Below are positions 6,792-19,918 of a DNA stretch of 64,000 nt, piece by piece; within the stretch, counting starts at the first letter, position 1; every line of letters starts with the position of its first letter. Under the pieces are notes generated by a model that saw only the letters and a list, made by a program, of their open reading frames with translations, did not search any database and had not been told where the DNA came from. A program made the position numbers and the translations under genes. The stretch comes from Lentimicrobiaceae bacterium (GTDB lineage: Bacteria > Bacteroidota > Bacteroidia > Bacteroidales > JAGONC01): contig JAGONC010000002.1 of assembly GCA_017993235.1 (NCBI GenBank), positions 108,683 to 172,682 of the forward strand. Reading direction: 5' to 3'.

Positions 6792-9700
6792 ATGAGATTC
6801 ACAAGGCAATACAGATTATTGTTCCTCTTTACGATCATCCTCTACGGAACCGGCATAAACCAGCTCTTCGCTGAAGGAATCATCCTGCGGGAAAAGGGAG
6901 AGAATCAATTGGAGGTCGTTAAGAACACCAGTGACCAACTGGTCCTCCTGAATACCATCAATGAATTGAATGCCATCAAGGTGCAGACAGAGGCCGGCGT
7001 TTTTGTCCAGCTGGCCCTACCGGGTTATTCTTTCACAGAAAATGCCGGTGAGCCGCAATTACCGGTCAACCGGCGCCTGATCGGGGTGCCCTTTGGTTCT
7101 TCCCCCCACATTGAAATCATCAGTTATACCATCGGGGAATATTCACTACCCGAACTCGGGATTCATTTTCCTGTCATACCCGATCAGCCACCCTATCCCA
7201 AATCAGCTGACATACCTCCATTTCAGTACAATGAAGCTGCATACCAGCAGGATGATTTCAGTGGACAGGAGCTGGTCACGGTAGATATATTGGGTACGCT
7301 CAGAGGTATACAGCTGGGCAGGATCAATATCTGTCCTTTCGAATATAATCCTGTGCAACAGACGCTTCGTGTTTATCATGATCTCCGCATTGCGATCACA
7401 TTCCCGGGTGCTGACCTCATGAAAACAGCGCAGTCGAAATCCATGATGGACAATCCCTATTTCAGGGCGGTCAGTGCTTCGCTGATCAATGATAAATCCG
7501 ATGCAGGCAAGGATACGATCACGCAGATCCCTGTCAAGTATGTCATTGTCTCGCATCCGATGTTCCAGGAGCAACTGCAACCCTTCATTGAATGGAAGAT
7601 CCGGAAGGGATTCCATGTGATTGAGGCCTATACGGATGATCCGCAGGTTGGAACGACCACCTCGTCGATCAAGGCCTATCTCCAGGGATTATATGAAGCG
7701 GGCACCCCGGATGATCCTGCGCCATCGTTCATCCTGTTTGTTGGGGATGTGGGTCAGATACCGGCCTGGAACCTCAGCGGGGAGTCGGACCGCGAATATT
7801 GTGAATACACAGGTGACCTTTTGCCGGAGGTCTATTACGGGCGCTTCTCGGCAACCAATCCGGATCAGCTTCAGCCACAGATCGATAAGACCCTGCTGTA
7901 CGAGCAATTCACCATGCCCGATCCTTCCTACCTTGGCGAAGTGGTCATGATTGGCGGTATGGATGGCTCCTTCGGGCATAACTGGGCCAACGGGCAGATC
8001 AACTACGGTACGGAGAATTATTTCAACGAAGCGCATGGCATCTTTTCCAACACCTATCTGTATCCTGATTCCGGTCCAAGCGCCGATCAGATCATCCAGG
8101 ACATCAGCGATGGGGTTGCCTATGCTAACTATACTGCACATGGCAGTCCCGGCGGATGGGCCGATCCATCCTTTTCAACCTCTGATATAGCGACGCTGCA
8201 AAACGTGGATAAATACGGGCTACTGGTAGGGAATGCATGCTCCACCAGTGAATTTGCAATAAGCGAATGCTTTGCGGAAGCAATGCTCAGGGCCGTTGAT
8301 AAAGGAGCCATCGGGTATATCGGGGGTTCCAACAGCACATACTGGGACGAGGATTATTTCTGGGGTGTGGGTGTGGGTCCCATTTCCGAAGATCCCCCCA
8401 GTTACGAAGAAACATCCCTGGGAGCCTACGACCGGATGTTCCATGATCATGGTGAACCCACTGCAGACTGGTATACGACACAGGGTCAGATGATCTATGC
8501 CGGTAACCTGGCCGTAACGGAAGGATCACCCGGTATGGCAGAATATTACTGGGATATTTACAACCTGATGGGTGATCCGTCGCTATCTCCCTATCTGGGT
8601 GTTCCCTCAGCCATGACAGTCAACTATGATCCCCTCATGCCACTGGCTTCCCCTTCTTTCATCATCACTGCAGAACCCAATGCCTGTGTGGCCATCTCCA
8701 AAGACGGGATCCTTCATGGTGTTGCCTATGCCGATGAGGAAGGTGTTGCAGTGGTCACACTGATTCCCATAACGGTACCCGGGAATGCTGATGTTGTAGT
8801 GACCGCCCAAAACCGCCAGCCCTTTATCGGCAGCGTCATTGTCGCTTCGCCCGAGGGTCCCTATATCCTTATGAATGCTTACCAGGTCAGTGATATTGCA
8901 GGGAACAACAATCAGATGGCTGAATATGGAGAAGAGATCCGGCTGAACATTACCCTGAAGAATGTCGGCCACTCAGATGCCAGCAACCTGACAGCTACCC
9001 TGACCACAGCAGATCCGTTTGTCACCATTACAGAAGCCAGCTACGCATGGCCCGATATTCAATCTGATTCACTCTCCTATCAGGAAAATATCTTTCGGAT
9101 CCTGGTACATGATTCCATTCCTGACCTTCATAAAGTCAATTTCAACCTGGAACTTTCCGACGGGGCTGAAGCATGGTCATCGCCGATCCAGTTTTTGATC
9201 CATGCTCCGCATATTGTGATCGGAAATTATATCATTGACGACAGCGTTTATGGAAATGACAACGGAAACCTGGATGCCGGTGAAGTCGTTGACCTGTTTG
9301 TTGAGATCACGAACAGCGGCCATACAGCCTCCGGGATGGCAAGCGCTGAATTAAGCTGTGAGAATGAATTCATTTTCATTAATTCCATAATGGATCAGTT
9401 CGCTTCGCTTGCTTCCGGGGAAACCCAGCTGGCTCATTTCACAGTGACCGTGGATCCATCTGCCACCATCGGCAATGTGGTTATTTTCAATGTACTTGCC
9501 ACCAGTGATCCTTATTCATCAGCAAAATCCTATCAGCTGAAAATCGGCAAGATCAGTGAAGATTTCGAAACAGCGGATTTCAGTGCTTTTAACTGGGTGC
9601 TGGGAGGCGATGCAGAATGGCAGGTTCAGGAAGGCGGGTACTCCGGTAATTACTGTGCACGTTCCGGGGCAATCACACATCTGGAAGAGACGGTCCTGAT

Positions 9701-10706
9701 GATCACCATTGATGTTTTAGCTAACGACTCCATCAAATTCTACCGTAAAGTTTCATCAGAATCCGGTTATGATTTTCTGAAATTCTATATTGATGCCTCC
9801 ATGAAAGCTGGATGGTCGGGCAATACGGAATGGGAACTTGTCTCCTTCCCTGTTTCGCAGGGTACACACACATTCCGCTGGATCTATACAAAGGACAGCT
9901 ATGTATCTTCGGGCAGTGACTGTGGATGGGTTGACCTGATCGAATTTCCTGCCATGGCCACCGATCCGGGTCCCTTCAGTCTCTATGCCTTTGCCAATCC
10001 GCAGGAAATCTGCCAGGGATCGTCCACCATGCTCTTTGCCATCCCCAGCGGTGGAACCGGAACCTATTCGTATGCATGGGAACCGTCATCCTCACTGAAC
10101 GATCCGACCCTATTCAATCCCACAGCTTCGCCGGAGGTTGAAACCGTGTATACGGTCACCGTCACTGATGGTCAGGAAACACTTTCTTCAGAGATCACCG
10201 TGAATATCCAATCCCGGCCCGATACCCCATCCATCTCACAGGTGGATGATTTGCTGGTATCCAGTGCACCTGAAGGAAATCAGTGGTATCGCGAGGGTGT
10301 ACTCATCGCGGGGGCCACGGAGCAGTCGCTGCTTCCGCCAAACACGGGTGAATACTATGTGATTGTGACCGGCGACAATGGCTGTGAATCGGAACCATCC
10401 AATACGATTTACTACATGTACACTTCCATCAGCGAAGTTCACAGGTCAAACGTACTGGAAATCTACCCCAATCCGTTCAGCGATCTTGTTCACATAAATT
10501 ATACACTGGAAGAGGCCTCACCCGTTAGAATCCTGCTTTACAATACAAGAGGGGAAACGGTCAGCATACCTGTCAACGGACAGAAAAAAGATAAGGGCTC
10601 CCATACGATCCATTTATCTGCAGAAGGTCTTGAGTCTGGGATTTATTCGGTTCGCTTTGAATCGCCGGGACATATTGAGGTCAGAAAAATAATTCTCGTC
10701 AAATAA
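6792..10706 (+). CDS. Secreted C25 (gingipain-type) cysteine peptidase with T9SS sorting domain
   Basis: A 1304-residue secreted peptidase, predicted to leave the cell through the type IX secretion system. An N-terminal signal peptide (residues about 1-27, ending near LFAEG) is followed by a propeptide, then the C25 catalytic domain. The catalytic dyad is visible as His450 in YTAHGSPGGW and Cys483 in VGNACST, 33 residues apart as in gingipains. After it come Ig-like/CARDB-type repeats, a lectin-like segment and a PKD-like repeat (YAWEPSSSL). The tail is IYPNPFSDLVHINY ... GIYSVRFESPGHIEVRKIILVK, a type A C-terminal sorting domain. It is the first of two tandem C25 genes. The substrate specificity cannot be told; gingipain-like Arg/Lys preference should not be assumed. 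Confidence 0.9.
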   Translation: MRFTRQYRLLFLFTIILYGTGINQLFAEGIILREKGENQLEVVKNTSDQLVLLNTINELNAIKVQTEAGVFVQLALPGYSFTENAGEPQLPVNRRLIGVPFGSSPHIEIISYTIGEYSLPELGIHFPVIPDQPPYPKSADIPPFQYNEAAYQQDDFSGQELVTVDILGTLRGIQLGRINICPFEYNPVQQTLRVYHDLRIAITFPGADLMKTAQSKSMMDNPYFRAVSASLINDKSDAGKDTITQIPVKYVIVSHPMFQEQLQPFIEWKIRKGFHVIEAYTDDPQVGTTTSSIKAYLQGLYEAGTPDDPAPSFILFVGDVGQIPAWNLSGESDREYCEYTGDLLPEVYYGRFSATNPDQLQPQIDKTLLYEQFTMPDPSYLGEVVMIGGMDGSFGHNWANGQINYGTENYFNEAHGIFSNTYLYPDSGPSADQIIQDISDGVAYANYTAHGSPGGWADPSFSTSDIATLQNVDKYGLLVGNACSTSEFAISECFAEAMLRAVDKGAIGYIGGSNSTYWDEDYFWGVGVGPISEDPPSYEETSLGAYDRMFHDHGEPTADWYTTQGQMIYAGNLAVTEGSPGMAEYYWDIYNLMGDPSLSPYLGVPSAMTVNYDPLMPLASPSFIITAEPNACVAISKDGILHGVAYADEEGVAVVTLIPITVPGNADVVVTAQNRQPFIGSVIVASPEGPYILMNAYQVSDIAGNNNQMAEYGEEIRLNITLKNVGHSDASNLTATLTTADPFVTITEASYAWPDIQSDSLSYQENIFRILVHDSIPDLHKVNFNLELSDGAEAWSSPIQFLIHAPHIVIGNYIIDDSVYGNDNGNLDAGEVVDLFVEITNSGHTASGMASAELSCENEFIFINSIMDQFASLASGETQLAHFTVTVDPSATIGNVVIFNVLATSDPYSSAKSYQLKIGKISEDFETADFSAFNWVLGGDAEWQVQEGGYSGNYCARSGAITHLEETVLMITIDVLANDSIKFYRKVSSESGYDFLKFYIDASMKAGWSGNTEWELVSFPVSQGTHTFRWIYTKDSYVSSGSDCGWVDLIEFPAMATDPGPFSLYAFANPQEICQGSSTMLFAIPSGGTGTYSYAWEPSSSLNDPTLFNPTASPEVETVYTVTVTDGQETLSSEITVNIQSRPDTPSISQVDDLLVSSAPEGNQWYREGVLIAGATEQSLLPPNTGEYYVIVTGDNGCESEPSNTIYYMYTSISEVHRSNVLEIYPNPFSDLVHINYTLEEASPVRILLYNTRGETVSIPVNGQKKDKGSHTIHLSAEGLESGIYSVRFESPGHIEVRKIILVK

Positions 10707-10759
10707 TGGGTAATGATTGAAATTTGTGCTATTTTTAGCCACTTGTTTACAACAGCTTC

Positions 10760-13700
10760 ATGACCATGAGGAAGATTTTACTATTCATTCCACTGATTGT
10801 CTGCTGGATGAGTAGCGCTACGGGCCATGAATGGATGAGTATTCGCTCTACTCAACATGCCCCGGCCAGATCGCAGCTATTGGAGTCCACCCTGGAACGA
10901 TCCATCATCAATTTTCAATTTGATGGATTTTTCCTGGATGTAGCCAACACACCCAAAGGACCTGCCATGGTGGTCAGCCTCGATGAGGGCACACCGATCC
11001 TGGAATCCGGATCGCCGGATCTGCCCAAACTCACCTCTTCAGTCATCATCCCTGACCTTGCCCGGATGGATATCAGGGTCATACATTCAGCATATACCGA
11101 TTTCCATGATATCTTCATCGCACCTTCCAAAGGCAACCTGACCCGTGATATTGACCCTGAGAGTGTTCCGTATGTATTTGGCAAAACTTACTCGCAGAAT
11201 GAATTTTTTCCCGGCACGCTGGCTCAGTTACAAACCCCTTATATTTTAAGGGATTACCGTGGACAGACCATTATCGTTTTCCCTTTTCAGTACAATCCGG
11301 TAAGCCGTACCCTGAGAGTGTACAACTCGATAACCATCGAAATCAAACAATTGGATGAAGAGGGAATCAATCCGTTGATCCGCCACAAAGAAACCGACCG
11401 GGTGGATGTGGAATTCAACCGGATCTATGAACGTCATTTCATGAATCTTCAGCAGGTTCGCTATACTCCGGTAGAGGAGCAGGGGAACATGCTGGTGATC
11501 TGCTATGGTGACTTTATGGACGAGATGGAGCCTTTTGTCGAATGGAAACAATTAATGGGCATCCCTATCGAAATGGTGGATGTGGCTGCAATCGGGAATG
11601 CATCACAGATCAAGACCTATGTTGAGGACTATTATACCACCAACGGACTTACCTTCCTGCTCCTGGTGGGTGATGCCGGGCAGGTCCCCACGCATCCGTA
11701 CGGCGGAGTTCCCGCTTCTGACAATAGCTATGGATTTATTTTGGGTGACGATTCCTATGCTGAGGTTTTTGTCGGGCGATTTTCTGCGGAGACACCGGAT
11801 CAGGTGACCACCCAGGTAGAACGGGTCATCAATTATGAAAAAAATCCGCTGATCAGCACGGATTGGTTCACCCGCCAGGCAGGCATTGCCTCCTCTCAGG
11901 GTCCCGGTGATGACAATGAAATGGATTATGATCACATGAGGAATATCCAGTCCGACCTGTTGAACTACACGTATACCTATGGAGCCGAACTATTTGACGG
12001 CACACAGGGGAACCTGGATGCCCCCGGTAATCCGACTCCTTCTATGGTTGCTGCCGAAATCAACGCCGGTGTCAGCATGATCACCTATACCGGACATGGC
12101 AGTATAATCTCCTGGGGTACATCCGGATTTTCAAATACCAATGTGGATCAGCTCACCAATACGCAGATGCTGCCTTTCATCTGGTCGGTTGCCTGCAGCA
12201 ATGGAGTTTTTGCAGGAAGCACCTGTTTTGCAGAAGCCTGGATGCGGGCGACAGATGACAACGGTGAACCGGCAGGGGCCATTGCCACCCTGATGTCAAC
12301 CATTAGCCAGTCGTGGGATCCGCCAATGGATGCTCAGGATGAAATGATCGATATCCTGGTGGAAAGTTACCCGGAGAACATCAAGCGCACATTCGGAGGA
12401 ATCTCCTTCAATGGGTGCATGAAAATGAATGACGACTATGGTTCAGATGGATCGTATGAGACCAATGCCTGGACATGCTTCGGGGACCCGTCGCTCGTGG
12501 TGAGGACTGCCATCCCGCAAGAGCTCACCGTCACGCATAATCCTGAAGCCTTCCTGGGATCAACCCAGTTTGTCGTGAATTGTACAACGGACGGGGCACT
12601 GGTGGGCCTTACCATTGATGATCTGCTGATCGGCTCTGCCATCGTACAGGATGGGATGGCCCTTATCGAATTCGAACCTCTCCTTCTGGAAGATACCCTG
12701 ACGATCGTTACCACTGCCTATAACTACCTGCCTACCATCACCGAGATTCCCATCAGCCATCCCGATGGGCCCTATGTAATTTTCAGTACCTGCTCGGTGA
12801 ACGACACCCAAGGTAACGCCAACGGCCTGGTGGATTACGGAGAACAGATCATGCTAACCGTTGACCTCTCCAATGTGGGAATTGAAGAAGCCACCGGCGT
12901 GACAACCGTGCTGACCTGTAGCAATCCCTATATCACCCTTCTCGATAATTCAGAAACCTACGGCAACATACTGCCTGACAGCAATAAAATCATCAGCGAC
13001 GCTTTCAGCTTTCAGGTAAGTTCTGAAGTGTCTGACGGAGATATCCTCCTGTTCAGCCTCCAGATCAATGGAAGTGGAGGAGAAATGTGGACCAGCCATT
13101 TTACGCTTGTGGCCCATGCACCGGTACTTACCATGGGCACCCTCACCATCCTGGATCCTGAAGGTAACAACAACGGCAGGCTGGATCCGGGTGAATCCGC
13201 CCAGATCATCGTGCAGATTACCAATAAAGGTACATCAGAAGCACTTAACGTTCAGGGTTTGCTATCCTCAACAGATGAATACATCACGATCAATCAGGCG
13301 TTAATCTCCTATGGAAACATTACCGGGAACGGGACAGGTGAAGGCACATTCACGGTGACTCCTGCGGAGGGAACACCCCCGGGACACCCTGCATCGTTTT
13401 CCTTTACCATCGATGCGGATCAGGGATTGACAGGAAGCGGAAGTTTTACCTCGGTCGTCGGGCAAATCCCTGTCCTCATCCTTGACCTGGACCCGAATCA
13501 TTCATCAGGACCTGTCATGCACCAAACCATTCAGGATCTGGGGATCACCTGCGATTATCTCACCACCATCCCTGCGGATTTGAATCTTTATGCTTCGGTA
13601 TTTGTCTGTCTCGGTGTTTATTCATCAAACCACGTGCTGACCCAGGACGAAGGCAATCAACTGGCCGGTTACCTGAACCTGGGAGGAAAATTATACATGG

Positions 13701-14878
13701 AAGGAGCTGATACCTGGGCTTATAACATGGAAACACCGGTGCATGATCTGTTTCTGATCAACGGTGTGCAGGATGGCAGCGCAGACCTCAGCGCGGTGTA
13801 CGGTTTGAATGAAACCTTTGCTGAAGAAATGATATTCACCTATTCGGGTGAAAACAGCTACATAGACCATCTTGAACCCCTCAGCCCGGCCTTTCTCCTG
13901 TTCATGAACCAGAGTCCGGCTTACGGATGTGCTGTTGCAAACGATGCCGGAACTTACCGGACGATCGGAACTTCTTTTGAATTTGCAGGACTTACCGATA
14001 CTGACACTCCTTCCACAAAGACCGATCTGATGATTGCATACTTGGATTTTTTCGGAATTCAGGTCAAATGGGGTTCGGCAACCGGGAATGTCACAGAAGC
14101 AGGTACGGGATATCCTATCAGCGGTGCTCAGGTGTCGGTGGGTATCCATCATGTATTCACAAACGAAGAGGGCCTGTTCTCCGGTACTTTTCCGGTGGGT
14201 GATTGGTCCATATGTGCTGCTGCCGCCGGGCATGAAATGATGTGTGAATCCATAACCATCTTTGAGGATTCAGCAGTGATCCGTGATTTTACCCTTGCAT
14301 ATCTTCCCCCACCCTCCAATCTTCAGGTCACTCTGAACGAAAATATTGCTACCCTGACATGGGAACTGGCCACGGAAAGACTTCTCACGAATTACCATGT
14401 TTACAGAAGCAAGGATGATGGGACCTTTGAAATGATCGCCACCCCGGTAGAGTTGAACTACAATGACGCCCTGAGCCTTTCAGGAATCTATCGGTACTAT
14501 GTTACCGCCATATATGATGAAATCAATGAAAGTGAACCGACCAACATGGTCACGGTGGAGTTTACGGCTACGGGTATCAGCAATCCTGATCTGATCCCTC
14601 AATGTACCAGGTTGGGCTCCAATTATCCCAATCCATTCAACGAAACGACCAGGCTGCGTTTTGACCTCAGCAGGGACGGGGACGTGTTCATTGAAATATA
14701 CGGGATTTCCGGCGAAAAAATCCGGACACTGATGCATGAAAATGCGTTGGCCGGACAGCATGAAGTGGAATGGGATGGCAAAGACCACCGGGGGATGCCT
14801 GTTCCCCCGGGCGTATATATCTTCCAGTTAAAATCAGGTAATTATATCCATTCCAGGAAGATGGTCCTGATGAGGTAA
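10760..14878 (+). CDS. Secreted C25 (gingipain-type) cysteine peptidase, second copy, with FlgD-like/T9SS C-terminus
   Basis: A 1372-residue relative of the preceding gene, starting 53 bases after it. It has a signal peptide (ending around residue 22), a propeptide, and a catalytic domain with His446 in YTGHGSI and Cys479 in SVACSNG, again 33 residues apart. Downstream are CARDB-like repeats, a segment resembling a ThuA/GATase-like fold (ILDLDPNHSSGPVMHQTI), a carboxypeptidase-regulatory-like domain (GNVTEAGTGYPISGAQVSVG), a fibronectin III domain and a FlgD-like sorting domain (NYPNPFNETTRLRFDL ... GVYIFQLKSG). The core domains of the two neighbours align but the C-terminal modules differ, so this is old duplication with module exchange. 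It probably depends on SprA for export. Confidence 0.9.
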   Translation: MTMRKILLFIPLIVCWMSSATGHEWMSIRSTQHAPARSQLLESTLERSIINFQFDGFFLDVANTPKGPAMVVSLDEGTPILESGSPDLPKLTSSVIIPDLARMDIRVIHSAYTDFHDIFIAPSKGNLTRDIDPESVPYVFGKTYSQNEFFPGTLAQLQTPYILRDYRGQTIIVFPFQYNPVSRTLRVYNSITIEIKQLDEEGINPLIRHKETDRVDVEFNRIYERHFMNLQQVRYTPVEEQGNMLVICYGDFMDEMEPFVEWKQLMGIPIEMVDVAAIGNASQIKTYVEDYYTTNGLTFLLLVGDAGQVPTHPYGGVPASDNSYGFILGDDSYAEVFVGRFSAETPDQVTTQVERVINYEKNPLISTDWFTRQAGIASSQGPGDDNEMDYDHMRNIQSDLLNYTYTYGAELFDGTQGNLDAPGNPTPSMVAAEINAGVSMITYTGHGSIISWGTSGFSNTNVDQLTNTQMLPFIWSVACSNGVFAGSTCFAEAWMRATDDNGEPAGAIATLMSTISQSWDPPMDAQDEMIDILVESYPENIKRTFGGISFNGCMKMNDDYGSDGSYETNAWTCFGDPSLVVRTAIPQELTVTHNPEAFLGSTQFVVNCTTDGALVGLTIDDLLIGSAIVQDGMALIEFEPLLLEDTLTIVTTAYNYLPTITEIPISHPDGPYVIFSTCSVNDTQGNANGLVDYGEQIMLTVDLSNVGIEEATGVTTVLTCSNPYITLLDNSETYGNILPDSNKIISDAFSFQVSSEVSDGDILLFSLQINGSGGEMWTSHFTLVAHAPVLTMGTLTILDPEGNNNGRLDPGESAQIIVQITNKGTSEALNVQGLLSSTDEYITINQALISYGNITGNGTGEGTFTVTPAEGTPPGHPASFSFTIDADQGLTGSGSFTSVVGQIPVLILDLDPNHSSGPVMHQTIQDLGITCDYLTTIPADLNLYASVFVCLGVYSSNHVLTQDEGNQLAGYLNLGGKLYMEGADTWAYNMETPVHDLFLINGVQDGSADLSAVYGLNETFAEEMIFTYSGENSYIDHLEPLSPAFLLFMNQSPAYGCAVANDAGTYRTIGTSFEFAGLTDTDTPSTKTDLMIAYLDFFGIQVKWGSATGNVTEAGTGYPISGAQVSVGIHHVFTNEEGLFSGTFPVGDWSICAAAAGHEMMCESITIFEDSAVIRDFTLAYLPPPSNLQVTLNENIATLTWELATERLLTNYHVYRSKDDGTFEMIATPVELNYNDALSLSGIYRYYVTAIYDEINESEPTNMVTVEFTATGISNPDLIPQCTRLGSNYPNPFNETTRLRFDLSRDGDVFIEIYGISGEKIRTLMHENALAGQHEVEWDGKDHRGMPVPPGVYIFQLKSGNYIHSRKMVLMR

Positions 14879-14884
14879 TCGCGG

Positions 14885-15769
14885 TCATCTGACCGAAACC
14901 TGGGAAACCTGAAGAACCTCGTATGTATCAGCATCATAGGCAAAAGCAACGATCTTGCATTTATAAGGATCCCATGCTTCATTCAGGTAGTATTTATAGC
15001 TTTTCGTGACCTCAGAGTCTTCGGCCATGATGACTCCCCGCTGGGCTATTTGAACCCCCCAGGGAGTGTTGACTGCACCCCTCAGCACATGATTATGCTC
15101 GTATTCCAGGATCTCGGGAGTGTCACCCACCTCCGGATTGTTATTCTTCTGGGGAGCAATGATCTCATCTTCAATGATCACGACATTCAGGTTCAGGTTT
15201 CGGTTTGTTTCCTTGTTGAACACAGTCTGGATATGTGTGCAAAGCTTTCGGTCAGATTCCTGATACTCATTGATGATCTCAACCGTCAGTTCAGGTTCCC
15301 TTTCCAATTGTTGGGCGATCGCGTTACTCCATGCACCGGGTGATAAAATGTGATCACTGTTATATCCAATCCTGTCAACCATCCCATTGGGATTCCCCAC
15401 TTTGGAGATCCCAAAGAATGTATCCCATTCCGTACCGGCTTCTGTTCTGAAGTCAGTCGTATAATTCCCGCCCATCGGTGTGGCGAAGAAACCGGCGTGA
15501 ATGGATATCACAACCAGTCTATCACCCAGTCCATCCTGAAGGTCATGTGCTGTCACTGCCGCAGTCGGACAGTTTACGCACAGATGGCCGGTATAGTCTT
15601 CCAGAAGAACCCGTTTCACCGGATCATGAATATGCGGAAACGCCGGGACCGGGCATTCACTGGTATCGGCTCCACCGACATCAGTGAGATAGGGTGCTTC
15701 CATTTCATCACAGGAAAGGAGAAAGAAGGTTGCAAACAAAAAGAGGGAAAAGTATCCTATATATTTCAT
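14885..15769 (-). CDS. Omp28-related lipoprotein with thioredoxin-like CxxC
   Basis: A 294-residue lipoprotein: the signal peptide ends in the lipobox LLSC (Cys20). The mature part begins a thioredoxin-like domain with VLLEDYTGHLCVNCPTAAV, placing Cys64 and Cys67 in a CxxC, followed by LVVISIHAGFFATP. This architecture is that of the Omp28-related outer-membrane proteins. It is the last gene of a minus-strand run TlpA - DUF6029 - Omp28 with a 10-base spacer upstream. A role in extracytoplasmic thiol chemistry is plausible but not proven; many Omp28 proteins have no known function. It ends seven bases from the end of the convergent C25 gene. Confidence 0.85.
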   Translation of the reverse strand: MKYIGYFSLFLFATFFLLSCDEMEAPYLTDVGGADTSECPVPAFPHIHDPVKRVLLEDYTGHLCVNCPTAAVTAHDLQDGLGDRLVVISIHAGFFATPMGGNYTTDFRTEAGTEWDTFFGISKVGNPNGMVDRIGYNSDHILSPGAWSNAIAQQLEREPELTVEIINEYQESDRKLCTHIQTVFNKETNRNLNLNVVIIEDEIIAPQKNNNPEVGDTPEILEYEHNHVLRGAVNTPWGVQIAQRGVIMAEDSEVTKSYKYYLNEAWDPYKCKIVAFAYDADTYEVLQVSQVSVR

Positions 15770-15779
15770 TGTGTAGAAC

Positions 15780-17462
15780 TTAAAAACTACTGGTCAATGT
15801 AAGTGTGAACCCGTTCGACGCCGGAACGTTGCGGCAAACCCCGCCGACACAGATGATGCCTTCCCGCTGACGGGCATACCGGAGCTCTAAGCGGCTTGAT
15901 TCATGCATAAACCCGAATCCGACATTATAATAATGGAATCTCATGTCTTTGTCGGGATTGCCATAATTATACTGATCGAAGGCTACGACAAACCAGTGTG
16001 GGGATATGGTGTATTCCAGCAGTCCCATGGCCCAGTCGCCTCTGTCCTGTTCGGTCCACAGGTGCTGCAGCTCCATGCGCAGAGAATGGGTATCGTTGAT
16101 CCGGTAGACCAGGTCGGCCACCGCCGTATGGGCATATACAACCGGCTCACCCGTATGGCCTTCGATCACTTCAATATTGTACATTTGGTACAGATAGAAC
16201 AGGATCGCTTTGAAGGATGGGCTGAACTTCCGTGTCAGCTCCAGATTGAACTCTTCATAGTAGCGAGTATCCCCCATACCGTAAAGACTTGCTTTATACC
16301 CCTCGGTTCCGGGTGAGCCGATGCTGGTTGTATCGTCGATGGCTGAACGTTTGATGTCATTCGTGCTGGAGTATTCCAGCTTGATGGTGGTTCCATATTT
16401 CCCGCCGATCTTCGATTTTTTTGGTATGGTATACACAACCTGTCCAAGAATCCCAAGTTCTCCATTGGGCTGGGTAGCATAGGGGTATATGGCTGCCAGT
16501 GAATAGGTATACTGATCGGTCAGAGGCGGTAAAAAGTTGACATCCAATGCATTGCTTGTTTCGGTACGTTTTGATTTAAAGCTCATGTTATCCATGTACT
16601 TGCTGCTCAGGGTTACGCCGAGACCCTTTACGGAATAGCTTGCACTCAGCCACATAGCCTGACCATTCTTATAGATGTAATGGTTGACTGCGGATGGATC
16701 GTTGATCTTCCTGGCATATTCTCCCGCAAGGGTAAATCCCCCGCGGATCAGGTTCAGGCGTCCGGCCCAGGCGCCCACATTCAACGGGAGGTTCAGCATG
16801 TTGCGCTCATCGATCATGATTTGCTCATCCTCCTGGTACTTGCTCACAAAGCTGCCTCCCAGGATGACGCGTGTTTGTGCCTCAGCCCATTTTTTGATCA
16901 CATCATTGAAATTGATCTCTCCATCCACTGCACGGACAATACCGGGCCCCTTTTCCCAGAAAAACCGTTGTTTTCCGATCACACCTTTTATAAGAATTCC
17001 CTGGACAGGTTCAATTTTAGCCCTGAACCCGTCAATGGAATTATCGTATCCAAGGTTCCATTCTTCGTAGCTTCTCAGGATCAAACCGTTCCCAAACTGT
17101 TCATAAAAGTTACCTGCTGTCAGGTCGAACATGCCCTTTTTGAATTGCACAAACCGGTAGGGAATCCCCTGACCTTTGTATCGCGGATCAAAGCCGCTTA
17201 TCGGATTAAGATAACCTTCGTACCGTATCCCTGCAGTGAACGGCCCGTTGGTATAGATCACATTCAGAAAACCGTTCATCAGCATTTTTTCCTGTACGTC
17301 AGGAGCGCCGATGGCTGAATCAGGCTTGTAGGTCTGGGCATCCAGCTGAAAGCTTCCGTGAACGTCGCCACCCAAAAAATTCTGGCCAAGGGTGAAGGCA
17401 GGGAGAAAAAAGAGAAGAAGGGGTAAGATTCTTACATATCGAAACAGGTTATTCATGGTCAT
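15780..17462 (-). CDS. DUF6029 family outer-membrane beta-barrel protein
   Basis: A 560-residue protein with a signal peptide (cleavage near FTLGQ) and alternating aromatic/polar strands throughout, ending in SNGFTLTLTSSF with a terminal Phe, as expected of an outer-membrane barrel. The N-terminal section GGDVHGSFQLDAQTYKPDS and the GNFYEQFGNGLILRSYEE stretch are the parts I recognise from DUF6029. Translation may begin at the second ATG (17456, MNNLF), because the first ATG sits in a copy of the GGTCATT-type spacer repeat. It lies between a TlpA-like protein and an Omp28-like lipoprotein, both with CxxC motifs. Its function is unknown. Confidence 0.8.
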   Translation of the reverse strand: MTMNNLFRYVRILPLLLFFLPAFTLGQNFLGGDVHGSFQLDAQTYKPDSAIGAPDVQEKMLMNGFLNVIYTNGPFTAGIRYEGYLNPISGFDPRYKGQGIPYRFVQFKKGMFDLTAGNFYEQFGNGLILRSYEEWNLGYDNSIDGFRAKIEPVQGILIKGVIGKQRFFWEKGPGIVRAVDGEINFNDVIKKWAEAQTRVILGGSFVSKYQEDEQIMIDERNMLNLPLNVGAWAGRLNLIRGGFTLAGEYARKINDPSAVNHYIYKNGQAMWLSASYSVKGLGVTLSSKYMDNMSFKSKRTETSNALDVNFLPPLTDQYTYSLAAIYPYATQPNGELGILGQVVYTIPKKSKIGGKYGTTIKLEYSSTNDIKRSAIDDTTSIGSPGTEGYKASLYGMGDTRYYEEFNLELTRKFSPSFKAILFYLYQMYNIEVIEGHTGEPVVYAHTAVADLVYRINDTHSLRMELQHLWTEQDRGDWAMGLLEYTISPHWFVVAFDQYNYGNPDKDMRFHYYNVGFGFMHESSRLELRYARQREGIICVGGVCRNVPASNGFTLTLTSSF

Positions 17463-17507
17463 TGGTTGTCATTCTAGGTCATTCATGGTGATTAATTCAG
17501 GGAGTTT

Positions 17508-18041
17508 TTATTCCTTGGCGGAGATGTCCTCGCCGGCTTTAACCTTTCGTACCAGATCGATGAGCTCAAGTTCGGCACCTTCGGTAAAGGATGTATGCTG
17601 CCATACGATTTCACCCTTTCCATTCACCAGGAACGTATGCGGGATCAGGTTTACATTCATGGCACGCTTAAAATCTCCGTTCGGATCAAGGTAAACATCA
17701 AAATCCCAGCCCTTTCCGTTAACAAAGGGCATCACCTTGGAAGATGATCTGGCGTCGTCGATGGAGATCGCTACGAGCCTGACCCCGGTTTCTTCCTGCC
17801 ACTCATCATAAACATCACTGATCGCGGTGAGTTCCCTTACGCAGGGCTTGCACCACAGTGCCCAGAAGCTGATGATCATCGGATTTCCTTCATTGGTAAG
17901 GTCAGTTGTGCTGAAATTCTGCCCATCCATGGTTTTTATGGTAACAGAGGGGATCTGCCGGCCTGCCTTGTCATCACCCTGGGCAATACAAATCATTCCA
18001 CTAAACAGGAATACAATCAATAAAGCACTGATTTTTTTCAT
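17508..18041 (-). CDS. TlpA-like thioredoxin-fold protein, exported
   Basis: A 177-residue thiol-disulfide oxidoreductase of the TlpA/ResA type. It has a signal sequence (residues about 1-20), a redoxin domain and the active site FWALWCKPCVREL with Cys64 and Cys67. LVAISIDDARSSSKVMPFV and the later NLIPHTFLVNGKGEIVW with the cis-proline (IP) are typical. It would act in the periplasm, probably as a reductant. It heads the operon with the DUF6029 barrel (45-base spacer) and Omp28. A TAACTTTG box lies 47 bases upstream. Confidence 0.9.
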   Translation of the reverse strand: MKKISALLIVFLFSGMICIAQGDDKAGRQIPSVTIKTMDGQNFSTTDLTNEGNPMIISFWALWCKPCVRELTAISDVYDEWQEETGVRLVAISIDDARSSSKVMPFVNGKGWDFDVYLDPNGDFKRAMNVNLIPHTFLVNGKGEIVWQHTSFTEGAELELIDLVRKVKAGEDISAKE

Positions 18042-18223: not shown

Positions 18224-19207
18224 CTATTCTTCAAGATACACTTCCAGCAGTTCCATCGATTGTGCCGGGTTCAGCCTGTAATCAGGGAGCTCGGCGGGTA
18301 TGAGGACCGCATCGCCACTGGCCAGCCGAAGGTTCCCATCACGGTATACCAATTCCCCGCTTCCCCCTGTACAAATATAGACCACAAAAGAATCAAGTTC
18401 CGTGAAGTCTTTGTTCACCGGTCGGGTAAGCTGGAGCAGATTGGTCGTAAAATATGGACTCTCAACAAGAGGTACCGTTTCGTTGGGCCTCTTCACATAG
18501 TCGGTACGATAGGGATCACCGGCCTCGTAATCCATTGCCTCCAGCGCCTGCAGGATGTGCAGTTCACGGCTTTTACCCTGGGGATCTGTTCGGTCCCAGT
18601 CATATATACGATAGGTGATGTCGGAGGTCTGCTGGATCTCCGTCAGTAAAATTCCCGGGCCCAGCGCATGGATCCTACCTGCAGGCAGGTAAAATACGTC
18701 GCCCGCACTTACCTTTTCCGTATTCAGGATATCCCGTAGTGTTCGGTTTTGTAAATGATCAATGAACTGACGGCGGTCAATGGTCTTCCTGAATCCCGTG
18801 ATCAATTCGGCATCCCTCTCAGCATCGATCACATACCACATTTCCGTTTTACCGAAGCTCCCGTGTCGTTCGGCAGCGAGTGCATCATCGGGATGGACCT
18901 GGATGGAAAGATAATCACGGGAATCAATGAATTTGAAGAGGAGTGGAAAGGTTTCCCCGAACTTTTCATATACCGGTCCACCTACCAGGTTATCCATGTA
19001 AACTTCAATAAGTTCATTGAGCTCATTATCGGCGAGAAAACCATTGCTGACCACTGAATTTTCCCCTTCCACCCCAGAAATCAACCAGGCTTCCCCGCAG
19101 TTGTGCAGCGGAGAAAAATCTTTCCCGAGAACCGTTTTAATTCGCTGACCTCCCCAGATCTTTTCTTTAAAGATCGGTTTAAATAACAAAGGATATAACC
19201 TGTTCAT
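18224..19207 (-). CDS. manA: Mannose-6-phosphate isomerase, class I
   Basis: Interconverts mannose 6-phosphate and fructose 6-phosphate, feeding GDP-mannose synthesis or mannose use; zinc enzyme of the cytoplasm. I start it at the ATG 19207 (MNRLYPLLFKPIFKEKIWGG), because the family begins right there; the frame stays open far upstream into the opposite-strand gene but has no family resemblance. At 327 residues it matches the short Bacteroidota/Firmicutes type. Seen are WGG, GEAWLISG, the metal motif LSIQVHPDDALA and GRIHALGPGILLTEIQQ. Its start is 124 bases from the start of the divergent LOG-family gene. Confidence 0.92.
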   Translation of the reverse strand: MNRLYPLLFKPIFKEKIWGGQRIKTVLGKDFSPLHNCGEAWLISGVEGENSVVSNGFLADNELNELIEVYMDNLVGGPVYEKFGETFPLLFKFIDSRDYLSIQVHPDDALAAERHGSFGKTEMWYVIDAERDAELITGFRKTIDRRQFIDHLQNRTLRDILNTEKVSAGDVFYLPAGRIHALGPGILLTEIQQTSDITYRIYDWDRTDPQGKSRELHILQALEAMDYEAGDPYRTDYVKRPNETVPLVESPYFTTNLLQLTRPVNKDFTELDSFVVYICTGGSGELVYRDGNLRLASGDAVLIPAELPDYRLNPAQSMELLEVYLEE

Positions 19208-19300
19208 GCAGCAAGGATTACGACTGTTGGGTACCCGGATCAAAGGTAAAAAAAATTCGCTAGTATCATTTTTTCTATGGTTCTCTGTCCATCCTTTTTC

Positions 19301-19308
19301 TACTTTTG
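19301..19308 (+). promoter_or_regulatory. Putative -7 box of the LOG/kinase/dCMP deaminase group
   Basis: TACTTTTG matches TAnnTTTG and ends 22 bases before the ATG at 19331, which would give a short leader of about 18 bases. No -33 element is obvious. Confidence 0.38.
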
Positions 19309-19330
19309 TTTGGTTACAGGAACAAAGGAT

Positions 19331-19918
19331 ATGAAAAACCTGGGAATATTTTGTGGCTCGAGTATGGGCAGTTTGATGATGTACCGGGAAAAAGCAGCGG
19401 AACTGGGCGAGCAACTGGCAGGCAGACAGCTTACCCTGGTGTTTGGGGGAGCCAACATCGGGTTGATGAAAGCTGTTGCCGACAGTGTACTGCGAAACGG
19501 AGGAAAAGTGATTGGGGTGATGCCGCAGATCCTGGTCAAAAAGGAAATTCTCCATCAATCGCTGGATGAGATCATTATCGTGGATACGATGCATGAACGG
19601 AAGGCCAAAATTGCCGAACGGGCAGATGCATTCATGGCCCTGCCCGGAGGCTTCGGAACACTGGACGAACTGGCTGAGATCCTTTCATGGAACCAGCTGG
19701 AGGTAATTTCCAAACCCCTGGCACTGTTCAATATCAACCACTATTTCGATCATTTGATCCAATTCCTGGATCATTGTGTTGATCAACGTTTTTTGCGTAT
19801 CGAACACAGAAATAATATCCTTGTGGGGGATGACTGCTCGGACCTGCTTGACCGGTTAACGACCTTTAAACCGGTGGAGGTCCACAGCAAATGGGTGGAT
19901 GAACTCAAGAAGATGTAA
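19331..19918 (+). CDS. LOG-family (TIGR00730) nucleotide phosphoribohydrolase
   Basis: A Rossmann-like protein of 195 residues of the LONELY GUY family, which cleaves nucleoside 5'-monophosphates to base and ribose 5-phosphate; bacterial members are often annotated as cytokinin-activating or AMP/pyrimidine nucleosidases. The start MKNLGIFCGSSMGS is the classical N-terminus; a longer frame from 19277 overlaps the promoter box and is less likely. The hallmark PGGFGTLDELAEILSW is present, as is GGANIGLM. It precedes a small P-loop kinase and dCMP deaminase, suggesting a nucleotide salvage or housecleaning group. Confidence 0.88.
   Translation: MKNLGIFCGSSMGSLMMYREKAAELGEQLAGRQLTLVFGGANIGLMKAVADSVLRNGGKVIGVMPQILVKKEILHQSLDEIIIVDTMHERKAKIAERADAFMALPGGFGTLDELAEILSWNQLEVISKPLALFNINHYFDHLIQFLDHCVDQRFLRIEHRNNILVGDDCSDLLDRLTTFKPVEVHSKWVDELKKM

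Follow-up and report, generated by a model that had tools for sequence, protein, structure and literature searches.

Across the bacterial inner membrane, reducing power is carried by DsbD, CcdA and ScsB, in which a soluble thioredoxin passes it to the cysteine pair of a membrane protein, from where it goes on to a thioredoxin-like acceptor. MtrCAB conduits join a periplasmic redox protein, a large outer-membrane barrel and a surface lipoprotein. To our knowledge, the outer membrane is commonly regarded as a barrier between the cell surface and cellular reducing power, and the known electron routes through it are haem wires.

Two surface proteins of Porphyromonas gingivalis are relevant here. 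HBP35 is a surface thioredoxin that binds hemin and whose thioredoxin activity depends on both of its cysteines, according to the part of PMC2907840 considered here, which names no electron source for the protein. PorA acts upstream of PorXY-SigP signalling, and the mediator between surface PorA and the inner-membrane kinase PorY is stated as an open question in the sections of PMC7712824 consulted.

We describe a gene trio from a Lentimicrobiaceae bacterium, found in a window of 64,000 nucleotides (the whole stretch of DNA that was analyzed). Sequences and structure models lead us to think, with modest confidence, that its products probably form a thiol-disulfide relay through the outer membrane, serving dithiol and selenol proteins of the surface. 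The open-access PMC literature searched contained no account of a thiol relay through this membrane, in agreement with an initial annotation of the window that knew of none; as far as could be checked, machinery of this type has not been described.

Gene Layout and Family Assignments

The three genes lie on the minus strand in the order TlpA, barrel, Omp28. The TlpA-like gene (18041-17508) encodes a protein of 177 amino acids with the motif ALWCKPC and a Sec signal peptide without lipobox. After a spacer of 45 bases it is followed by the gene for an outer-membrane beta-barrel of 560 amino acids (17462-15780), and after another 10 bases by the gene for the lipoprotein Omp28 (15769-14885), with 294 amino acids, the lipobox LLSC and the motif HLCVNCP. 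The initial annotation had read these genes as a TlpA-DUF6029-Omp28 operon with C25 peptidases encoded next door. Open reading frames and profiles bear out the genes, spacers and cysteine motifs, and two C25 peptidase genes are indeed present on the plus strand, one with a T9SS-type tail and convergent with the trio (10760..14878), the other with a T9SS tail according to Pfam and NCBIfam profile searches (6792..10706). The upstream neighbor of the trio is manA, for mannose-6-phosphate isomerase (18224..19594, minus strand).

Profile searches place the barrel in DUF6029 (PF19494; residues 17-560, 620.7 bits, cut-off 27, E 2.9e-186), and Omp28 in both Pfam PF11551 (99.5 bits, cut-off 34.9) and NCBIfam lipoprot_Omp28 (NF033782; 163.8 bits, cut-off 150). 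The TlpA-like protein matches Pfam AhpC-TSA with 77 bits (cut-off 26) and belongs to the TlpA/ResA-like proteins, with an AhpC-TSA/Redoxin-type thioredoxin domain and a CxxC. Its nearest solved chain is 2m72 (E 4.2e-53); among the NCBIfam models none reached its cut-off, so that the exact subfamily is not fixed by profile.

Conservation of the Trio

DUF6029 barrels occur in 25 of the 51 families, counted by hand, of a 296-genome sample. We compared 149 loci, 69 of them drawn by profile (including the window; loci were retrieved from 69 of the 80 genomes with DUF6029) and 80 found by search patterns, one of which contains the cysteine motif of the barrel, so that this second set is weak evidence for that motif. 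Eleven genomes of a single family (f24) with DUF6029 matches were left out of the profile-drawn set, as was locus L069 of genome G227, where the DUF6029 match is weak and lacks the cysteine motif.

The initial annotation had proposed gene order across Bacteroidota as a check, and the order proved to be conserved. At 59/69 profile-drawn loci, TlpA is encoded directly upstream of the barrel, divergent from it or fused to it, and at 40/69 Omp28 follows the barrel. Since a random neighbor would be TlpA-like in far less than 1% of cases, TlpA stands beside the barrel well beyond chance; the whole genome of the window contains 11 AhpC-TSA-type matches. TlpA is missing without explanation at three of the 69 loci (L051, L056, L088), and four genomes without TlpA at the barrel locus encode it elsewhere, divergent from a PorA-like dithiol gene. 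Neither Omp28 nor a downstream thioredoxin is found nearby at nine of the 69 loci; the genomes concerned, G218 excepted, have an Omp28 match at another place, which in G208 falls below the cut-off. In the f24 family, a thioredoxin-type protein (with a lipobox in five of eight) and a thioredoxin with a T9SS tail take the place of Omp28. At the genome level, Omp28 is present in 58/80 genomes with DUF6029 versus 4/216 others, counts that are uncorrected for kinship. The manA gene takes the same place at 33 of the 149 loci (the window and otherwise only loci of the second set) and is not counted as part of the system.

The cysteine motifs are retained as well. WCxPC is found in 59/61 and 76/76 trio TlpAs, and CxxC, searched as a loose pattern, in 40/40 and 72/72 trio Omp28 proteins; Omp28 homologs devoid of both cysteines, named initially as evidence against a relay, are absent from these.

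The Cysteine Pair of the DUF6029 Barrel

The AlphaFold2 model of the barrel (pLDDT 93.2) has 24 predicted strands of at least eight residues, and the C-terminal residue is Phe. The best matches among solved structures are the usher pores of FimD (Z 18.0 over 369 residues) and PapC (Z 17.5). MtrB (6r2q_B, TMq 0.43) is one of many barrels matched by the model, and a Foldseek search returned general barrels and no barrel-specific fold family.

By predicted topology, a CxxGxC motif lies at the extracellular end of the last hairpin, between strands 23 and 24 (E535-539/E542-546). In the window it reads CVGGVC (residues 538-543), with its codons at 15834..15851 on the minus strand, coordinates derived from the residue numbers and the sequence. 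C538 and C543 are present in all barrels of two alignments (24/24 in A1, 69/69 in A3), and among barrel ORFs in 68/70 and 67/70, respectively. No barrel cysteines other than this CxxxxC pair are conserved. Cysteine pairs thus form a chain across the trio, from the CxxC of TlpA through the CxxxxC of the barrel to the CxxC of Omp28. The pair C538/C543 did not figure in the initial annotation, and we regard it as the strongest fact on the trio.

In two species of one genus (genomes G292 and G314), TlpA is fused to the N-terminus of the barrel, where the predicted topology would put it at the periplasmic end. With the barrel cysteines at the predicted extracellular end, TlpA on the periplasmic side would have to extend into the barrel or through it.

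Omp28 and Its Selenocysteine Paralogs

Omp28 has a lipobox with Cys20, acidic residues behind it (CDEME), a thioredoxin domain with C64-V-N-C67 and a conserved Pro127, and a C-terminal beta-sandwich. Cys20, C64 and C67 are invariant among 68 aligned Omp28 sequences. Acidic residues after the lipobox are a surface export signal of lipoproteins, and they suggest that Omp28 lies on the outer face of the membrane; the control for this signal was tiny (12 ORFs). The best fold match of the Omp28 model (pLDDT 94.8) is HBP35 (5y1a; Z 24.9, 2.4 Å over 220 residues). The Omp28 of the window has no T9SS tail in searches with PF18962 and TIGR04183 and does not qualify as T9SS cargo on this basis; the long Omp28 proteins and the PorA-like partners do carry such tails. 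With the solved Omp28 fragment of P. gingivalis as query, 57 genomes were matched, P. gingivalis not among them, with a best identity of 40%; twelve loci from these genomes were retrieved.

The genome of the window also encodes four Omp28 paralogs in which TGA stands in place of the first cysteine codon of the CxxC, as well as SelB and tRNA-Sec. Judged from the sequence, this TGA is a selenocysteine codon in the active site of all four. An Rfam search of hairpins downstream of the TGA codons gave no match. With the NCBIfam model NF045500 the four paralogs, one of them cut by the contig end, score 50.8-59.8 bits, below the cut-off of 200.

PorA-Like Dithiol Proteins

A fourth dithiol partner of the trio is the PorA family, and a PorA-like gene adjoins the trio in several Bacteroidales. 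A profile search identified a solved relative, PorA 6kjk_A (E 5.3e-6), with aligned cysteines; none was reached by phmmer searches that started from two single PorA-like sequences. The cysteine pair is absent from only one of the 47 proteins of the first neighbor cluster (L079). A strict tie between this family and the barrel was rejected, as eight of at least 41 genomes with a near-full-length match lack DUF6029 (about nine candidates per genome were scored, and most other matches covered the T9SS tail only). Seven of these eight belong to one family (f10), in which the PorA-like gene lies between LptA/OstA-like and BamD-like genes, names that were read off the sequences. We abandoned an attempt to match PG2173-2175 with PGN tags through their numbering, because PGN_0120 appears elsewhere as a capsule gene.

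A Proposed Thiol Relay and Its Alternatives

In the relay that we propose, electrons would flow outward, in the reductive direction. Periplasmic TlpA, probably held reduced by the DsbD of the genome (a full-length DsbD is encoded in the window's genome), would dock on the DUF6029 barrel from the periplasmic side and exchange electrons with the C538/C543 pair. The barrel, presumably in contact with both partners, would hand the electrons on to Omp28, the thioredoxin-type lipoprotein of the surface, which in turn would serve surface thiol and selenol proteins with T9SS tails, and the final substrates may include long Omp28 (some with selenocysteine), T9SS-tailed thioredoxins and PorA-like dithiol proteins.

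The general idea of a thiol relay that leads from the periplasm to the surface goes back to the initial annotation and is strengthened by the barrel cysteine pair, the TlpA-barrel fusion, the thioredoxins replacing Omp28 and the selenocysteine Omp28 paralogs. The C25 peptidases, which had been named as its clients, do not hold up as a general purpose, and we consider it very improbable that the relay exists to keep these surface cysteine peptidases reduced. Within the flanking DNA retrieved, C25 genes are found at the trio of the window and at 12/80 loci of the second set, mostly in convergent orientation, but the window is alone in this respect among the 69 profile-drawn loci, giving 13/149 overall; C25 peptidases are shared with few relatives and are no conserved part of the system. 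The suggested co-occurrence, which is rare at the locus level, does exist at the genome level, where a C25-family gene is found in 78/80 DUF6029 genomes (the exceptions being G230 and G227) versus 128/216 others (p ~1e-12, uncorrected). As the C25 family takes in the T9SS sortase PorU, this association mostly reports a link with the T9SS. Moreover, G230 carries the trio but lacks C25 genes altogether, and gingipain activity was normal in hbp35 mutants of P. gingivalis, according to the part of PMC2907840 considered.

The similarity of the barrel to the usher pores FimD and PapC, together with the adjoining PorA-like gene, would also fit a pore for the export of Omp28, PorA-like and related thiol proteins, with TlpA keeping the cargo cysteines reduced or unscrambled. 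We think this unlikely, although not far-fetched: a general exporter would not be restricted to redox proteins as its cargo, yet dithiol proteins with a variety of folds are found as partners; many of these have T9SS tails and hence a route of their own, and both the invariant cysteine pair and a permanently fused TlpA would be left unexplained. Slam-type exporters of surface lipoproteins are a barrel family of their own with an N-terminal TPR-like domain; in the model, the DUF6029 barrel starts at residue 33 with only the signal peptide ahead. Structural disulfides are conserved in loops of some other outer-membrane barrels, and the barrel pair could be such a disulfide instead of a redox pair. 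TlpA would then be an assembly factor that makes, breaks or isomerizes structural disulfides of barrel and Omp28, and the barrel itself would have an unrelated function such as solute or polysaccharide passage; polysaccharide export has been proposed for DUF6029-like barrels of myxobacteria (PMC9603273, in the portion considered). This explanation appears decidedly unlikely, since an assembly factor would stay attached for good in the TlpA-barrel fusion, the selenocysteine Omp28 paralogs and the activity of HBP35 point to catalysis and not structure, and the recurrent neighbor clusters do not resemble genes for polysaccharide export, despite the recurrence of manA in the second set. Hemin binding by HBP35, the best fold match of Omp28, might finally point to a reductase that helps to capture metals or haem at the surface: Omp28/HBP35-like proteins would bind haem or metals, and the relay would reduce and release them. 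We give this hardly any credence, as the neighbor clusters do not resemble transport genes either and the trio has no evident haem motif.

A thiol relay for dithiol and selenol proteins of the surface would explain how HBP35-like surface thioredoxins, T9SS cysteine proteins and secreted selenoproteins stay working, and it would assign a function to DUF6029. It also offers a concrete test of the question, raised in the consulted sections of PMC7712824, of what mediates between PorA and PorY. Speculatively, and in our view rather improbably, the PorA dithiol might exchange electrons with Omp28, barrel and TlpA, so that the periplasm senses the redox state outside and signals it to PorY-PorX-SigP, while the relay also powers surface thioredoxins and selenoproteins. 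If true, this would be the first thiol circuit that both works and reports across an outer membrane, and the missing link between the surface and T9SS control.

Comparison With Known Systems

The Omp28-related selenoprotein of NCBIfam (NF045500) is likewise an Omp28 family with selenocysteine, and the four paralogs in the window's genome are relatives and not members of it. PorA (PGN_0123 = PG2172), the solved relative of the PorA-like partners, has a locus tag next to that of the Omp28 protein PG2173; the consulted sections of PMC7712824 describe it as a protein of T9SS signalling that contains a FimH-like domain and mention no role for its cysteines. HBP35 of P. gingivalis has the same two-domain fold as Omp28, with the CxxC in the same place, but HBP35 is T9SS cargo, whereas the trio Omp28 is a lipoprotein without T9SS tail. 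The MtrCAB porin-cytochrome conduits follow a three-part logic like that of the trio, with haems there and thiols here: CxxCH haem motifs do not occur in the trio (CKPCV, CVNCP), which is thus not a porin-cytochrome conduit. With DsbD, CcdA and ScsB the trio would share the thiol-disulfide logic itself, but the DsbD/CcdA domain PF02683 has no match in it; their membrane part is helical and resides in the inner membrane, whereas that of the trio is a beta-barrel of the outer membrane.

Conservation of the gene trio

The three genes recognized in the initial annotation (14885-18041), encoding a TlpA-like protein, a DUF6029 barrel and an Omp28 lipoprotein, all lie on the minus strand, separated by 45 and 10 bases, and their names are backed by Pfam and NCBIfam assignments. 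Of 296 genomes drawn evenly across the phylum, 80 have DUF6029, and these barrel genomes fall into 25 of the 51 families sampled. Omp28 was found in 62 genomes, of which 58 also have DUF6029 (raw counts, ignoring kinship).

Gene order proved to be conserved. We analyzed the flanks of 69 places drawn with the barrel profile plus the window, minus one weak match (set 1, 69 loci). TlpA was immediately upstream on the same strand, divergent or fused in 59 loci (53, 5 and 1, respectively). Omp28 sits between TlpA and the barrel in 2 further loci, and in G212, G196, G160 and G287 TlpA is found away from the barrel locus, adjoining a gene for a PorA-like protein. Of the other four loci, one abuts a contig edge and three lack TlpA for no evident reason. 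Omp28 immediately follows the barrel in 40/69 loci and lies elsewhere within the fetched locus in 12; a second thioredoxin-like gene takes its place in 8, and neither was near the barrel in 9. In set 2 (80 loci drawn by closer alignment), the corresponding counts were 75 for TlpA and 72 for Omp28. One genome (G180) has two full trios (L045 and L046), with the Omp28 motif CIGC in one and CVAC in the other.

A cysteine pair at the predicted outer face of the barrel

The sole cysteines that DUF6029 conserves form a pair in a CxxGxC motif (C538 and C543 in the barrel of the window). Of 70 ORFs, 68 and 67 have them, respectively. ORFs without the full pair were the dropped weak match and those of loci L096 and L097, which are broken or truncated. 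Both cysteines occur in every sequence of two alignments, one of 24 diverse barrels and one of 69 closer barrels, the latter chosen partly via the cysteine motif itself.

The AlphaFold2 model (pLDDT 93.2) has 24 long strands, with odd loops averaging 15.6 residues versus 4.5 for even turns. By this asymmetry, the N-terminus of the modeled barrel is periplasmic and the cysteine hairpin (residues 535-546) lies on the outer side. The nearest solved folds are the usher pores FimD (Z 18.0) and PapC (Z 17.5), which makes a wide barrel probable. A TlpA domain with a WCVPC motif is fused onto the barrel N-terminus in two congeneric species (G292 and G314), a fusion that would tether TlpA at the expected donor site.

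Omp28 and its substitutes

In 68 aligned trio Omp28 sequences, the lipobox cysteine, both CxxC cysteines and Pro127 are all invariant; no Omp28 in this alignment lacks either CxxC cysteine. Pro127 stands at the position of the thioredoxin cis-proline. The Omp28 model (pLDDT 94.8) matches P. gingivalis HBP35, a surface thioredoxin, with Z 24.9 (2.4 A over 220 residues), and the CxxC motifs of the two coincide in the Omp28 profile alignment. Acidic residues behind the lipobox, which resemble surface-export signals, are commoner than in a (very small) control set. Omp28 is a predicted surface-type thioredoxin. HBP35 is reported to reduce insulin, with both cysteines required (PMC2907840), and an Omp28-related protein of Paraprevotella clara, carried by type IX secretion (T9SS), is described as acting at the cell surface (PMC9477747).

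In family f24, no Omp28 was seen adjoining the barrel. A thioredoxin-type protein comes next, with a lipobox in 5/8 loci, usually followed by a further thioredoxin, with a T9SS tail in the sole one tested. The putative surface partner changes family, and its thioredoxin-fold dithiol character stays constant.

The genome of the window encodes six Omp28 proteins, the trio member included. One of the others has the motif CQFC and no TGA. In the remaining four (L240:2146-3816, minus strand; L241:4623-6293, plus; L241:1925-3583, minus; L243:3-1310, minus), an in-frame TGA replaces the first active-site cysteine (TGTW-U-x-x-C-P), with a predicted hairpin after each. T9SS tails were found on three; the contig end truncates the fourth. 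None of the four reaches the cut-off set for the known family of Omp28 selenoproteins. SelB (325 bits, cut-off 242) is encoded near a tRNA-Sec gene on another contig. The four paralogues appear to be selenoproteins exported by T9SS. Selenocysteine at the CxxC position argues for redox catalysis beyond the periplasm, where electrons would have to be supplied.

PorA-like proteins as a proposed fourth partner

PorA-like proteins are small. They have a signal peptide and a domain in which a C-x3/4-C pair is invariant, and most of those tested also carry a T9SS tail. Their profile aligns to the N-terminal domain of PorA as solved by crystallography (6kjk_A, E 5.3e-6), with the cysteines in register. 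Searching with the Cys-domain profile, we found such a gene near the barrel in 53/150 loci. Among the matches listed, DUF6029 is present in 33 of 41 genomes with a near-full-length PorA-like match. The genome of the window has one on another contig (L208:1317-2231, plus strand), divergent from a selenocysteine Omp28 gene. In f10 genomes without DUF6029 (L209-L215), the PorA-like gene is flanked by LptA/OstA-like and BamD-like genes.

In 3 of 12 loci fetched from the window's order (L256, L257 and L258), TlpA, barrel, Omp28, PorA-like and a long Omp28 all lie on one strand. L259 has the same order, with the lipoprotein Omp28 call masked by an overlapping ORF, and L262 has the first four genes in order before the contig ends. 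The solved chain nearest to the window TlpA is the thioredoxin-like 2m72, which we assume to be PG_2175. The order in L256-L258 agrees with P. gingivalis tag order, so far as known. PG_2174 is listed as uncharacterised in a comparison of vesicles (PMC4335976), PG2173 is the Omp28 lipoprotein (PMC9722745), and PG2172 (PGN_0123) is PorA (PMC7712824, Table 2). According to the latter paper, T9SS expression and gingipain activity fall when porA is deleted, and the authors state that PorA and PorY must be linked by a further factor (PMC7712824).

A proposed thiol relay across the outer membrane

The simplest reading covering all of these observations is that the trio is a thiol relay, as the initial annotation had suggested. 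Electrons would pass from the cytoplasm via DsbD, which is encoded in the genome of the window, to TlpA, the barrel cysteine pair and Omp28, and from there to dithiol and selenol proteins with T9SS tails. From sequence, we infer an outward and reducing direction because of the WCxPC motif, DsbD and selenocysteine.

The main rival explanation is that these thiol proteins are exported through the barrel, which would serve as a pore, in line with its usher-like fold and with PorA reaching the surface independently of T9SS. The relay had also been proposed to serve the neighboring C25 cysteine peptidases, two of which are encoded in tandem (6792-14878, plus strand), convergent with omp28. C25 genes also flank 12/80 set 2 loci, so a lineage-specific link is possible. 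Such service is unlikely as a general function, as the trio is present in G230, a genome with no C25-family match. There, a single Omp28 lipoprotein chain (L092:3390-5459, minus strand) has two Omp28 domains and two CxxC motifs, as if standing in for an absent T9SS-delivered copy.

Every part of the trio belongs to a known family. No described system matching the assembly was found in the open-access literature searched. As a thiol relay, the trio would work like DsbD and like the porin-cytochrome conduits, while being a member of neither.
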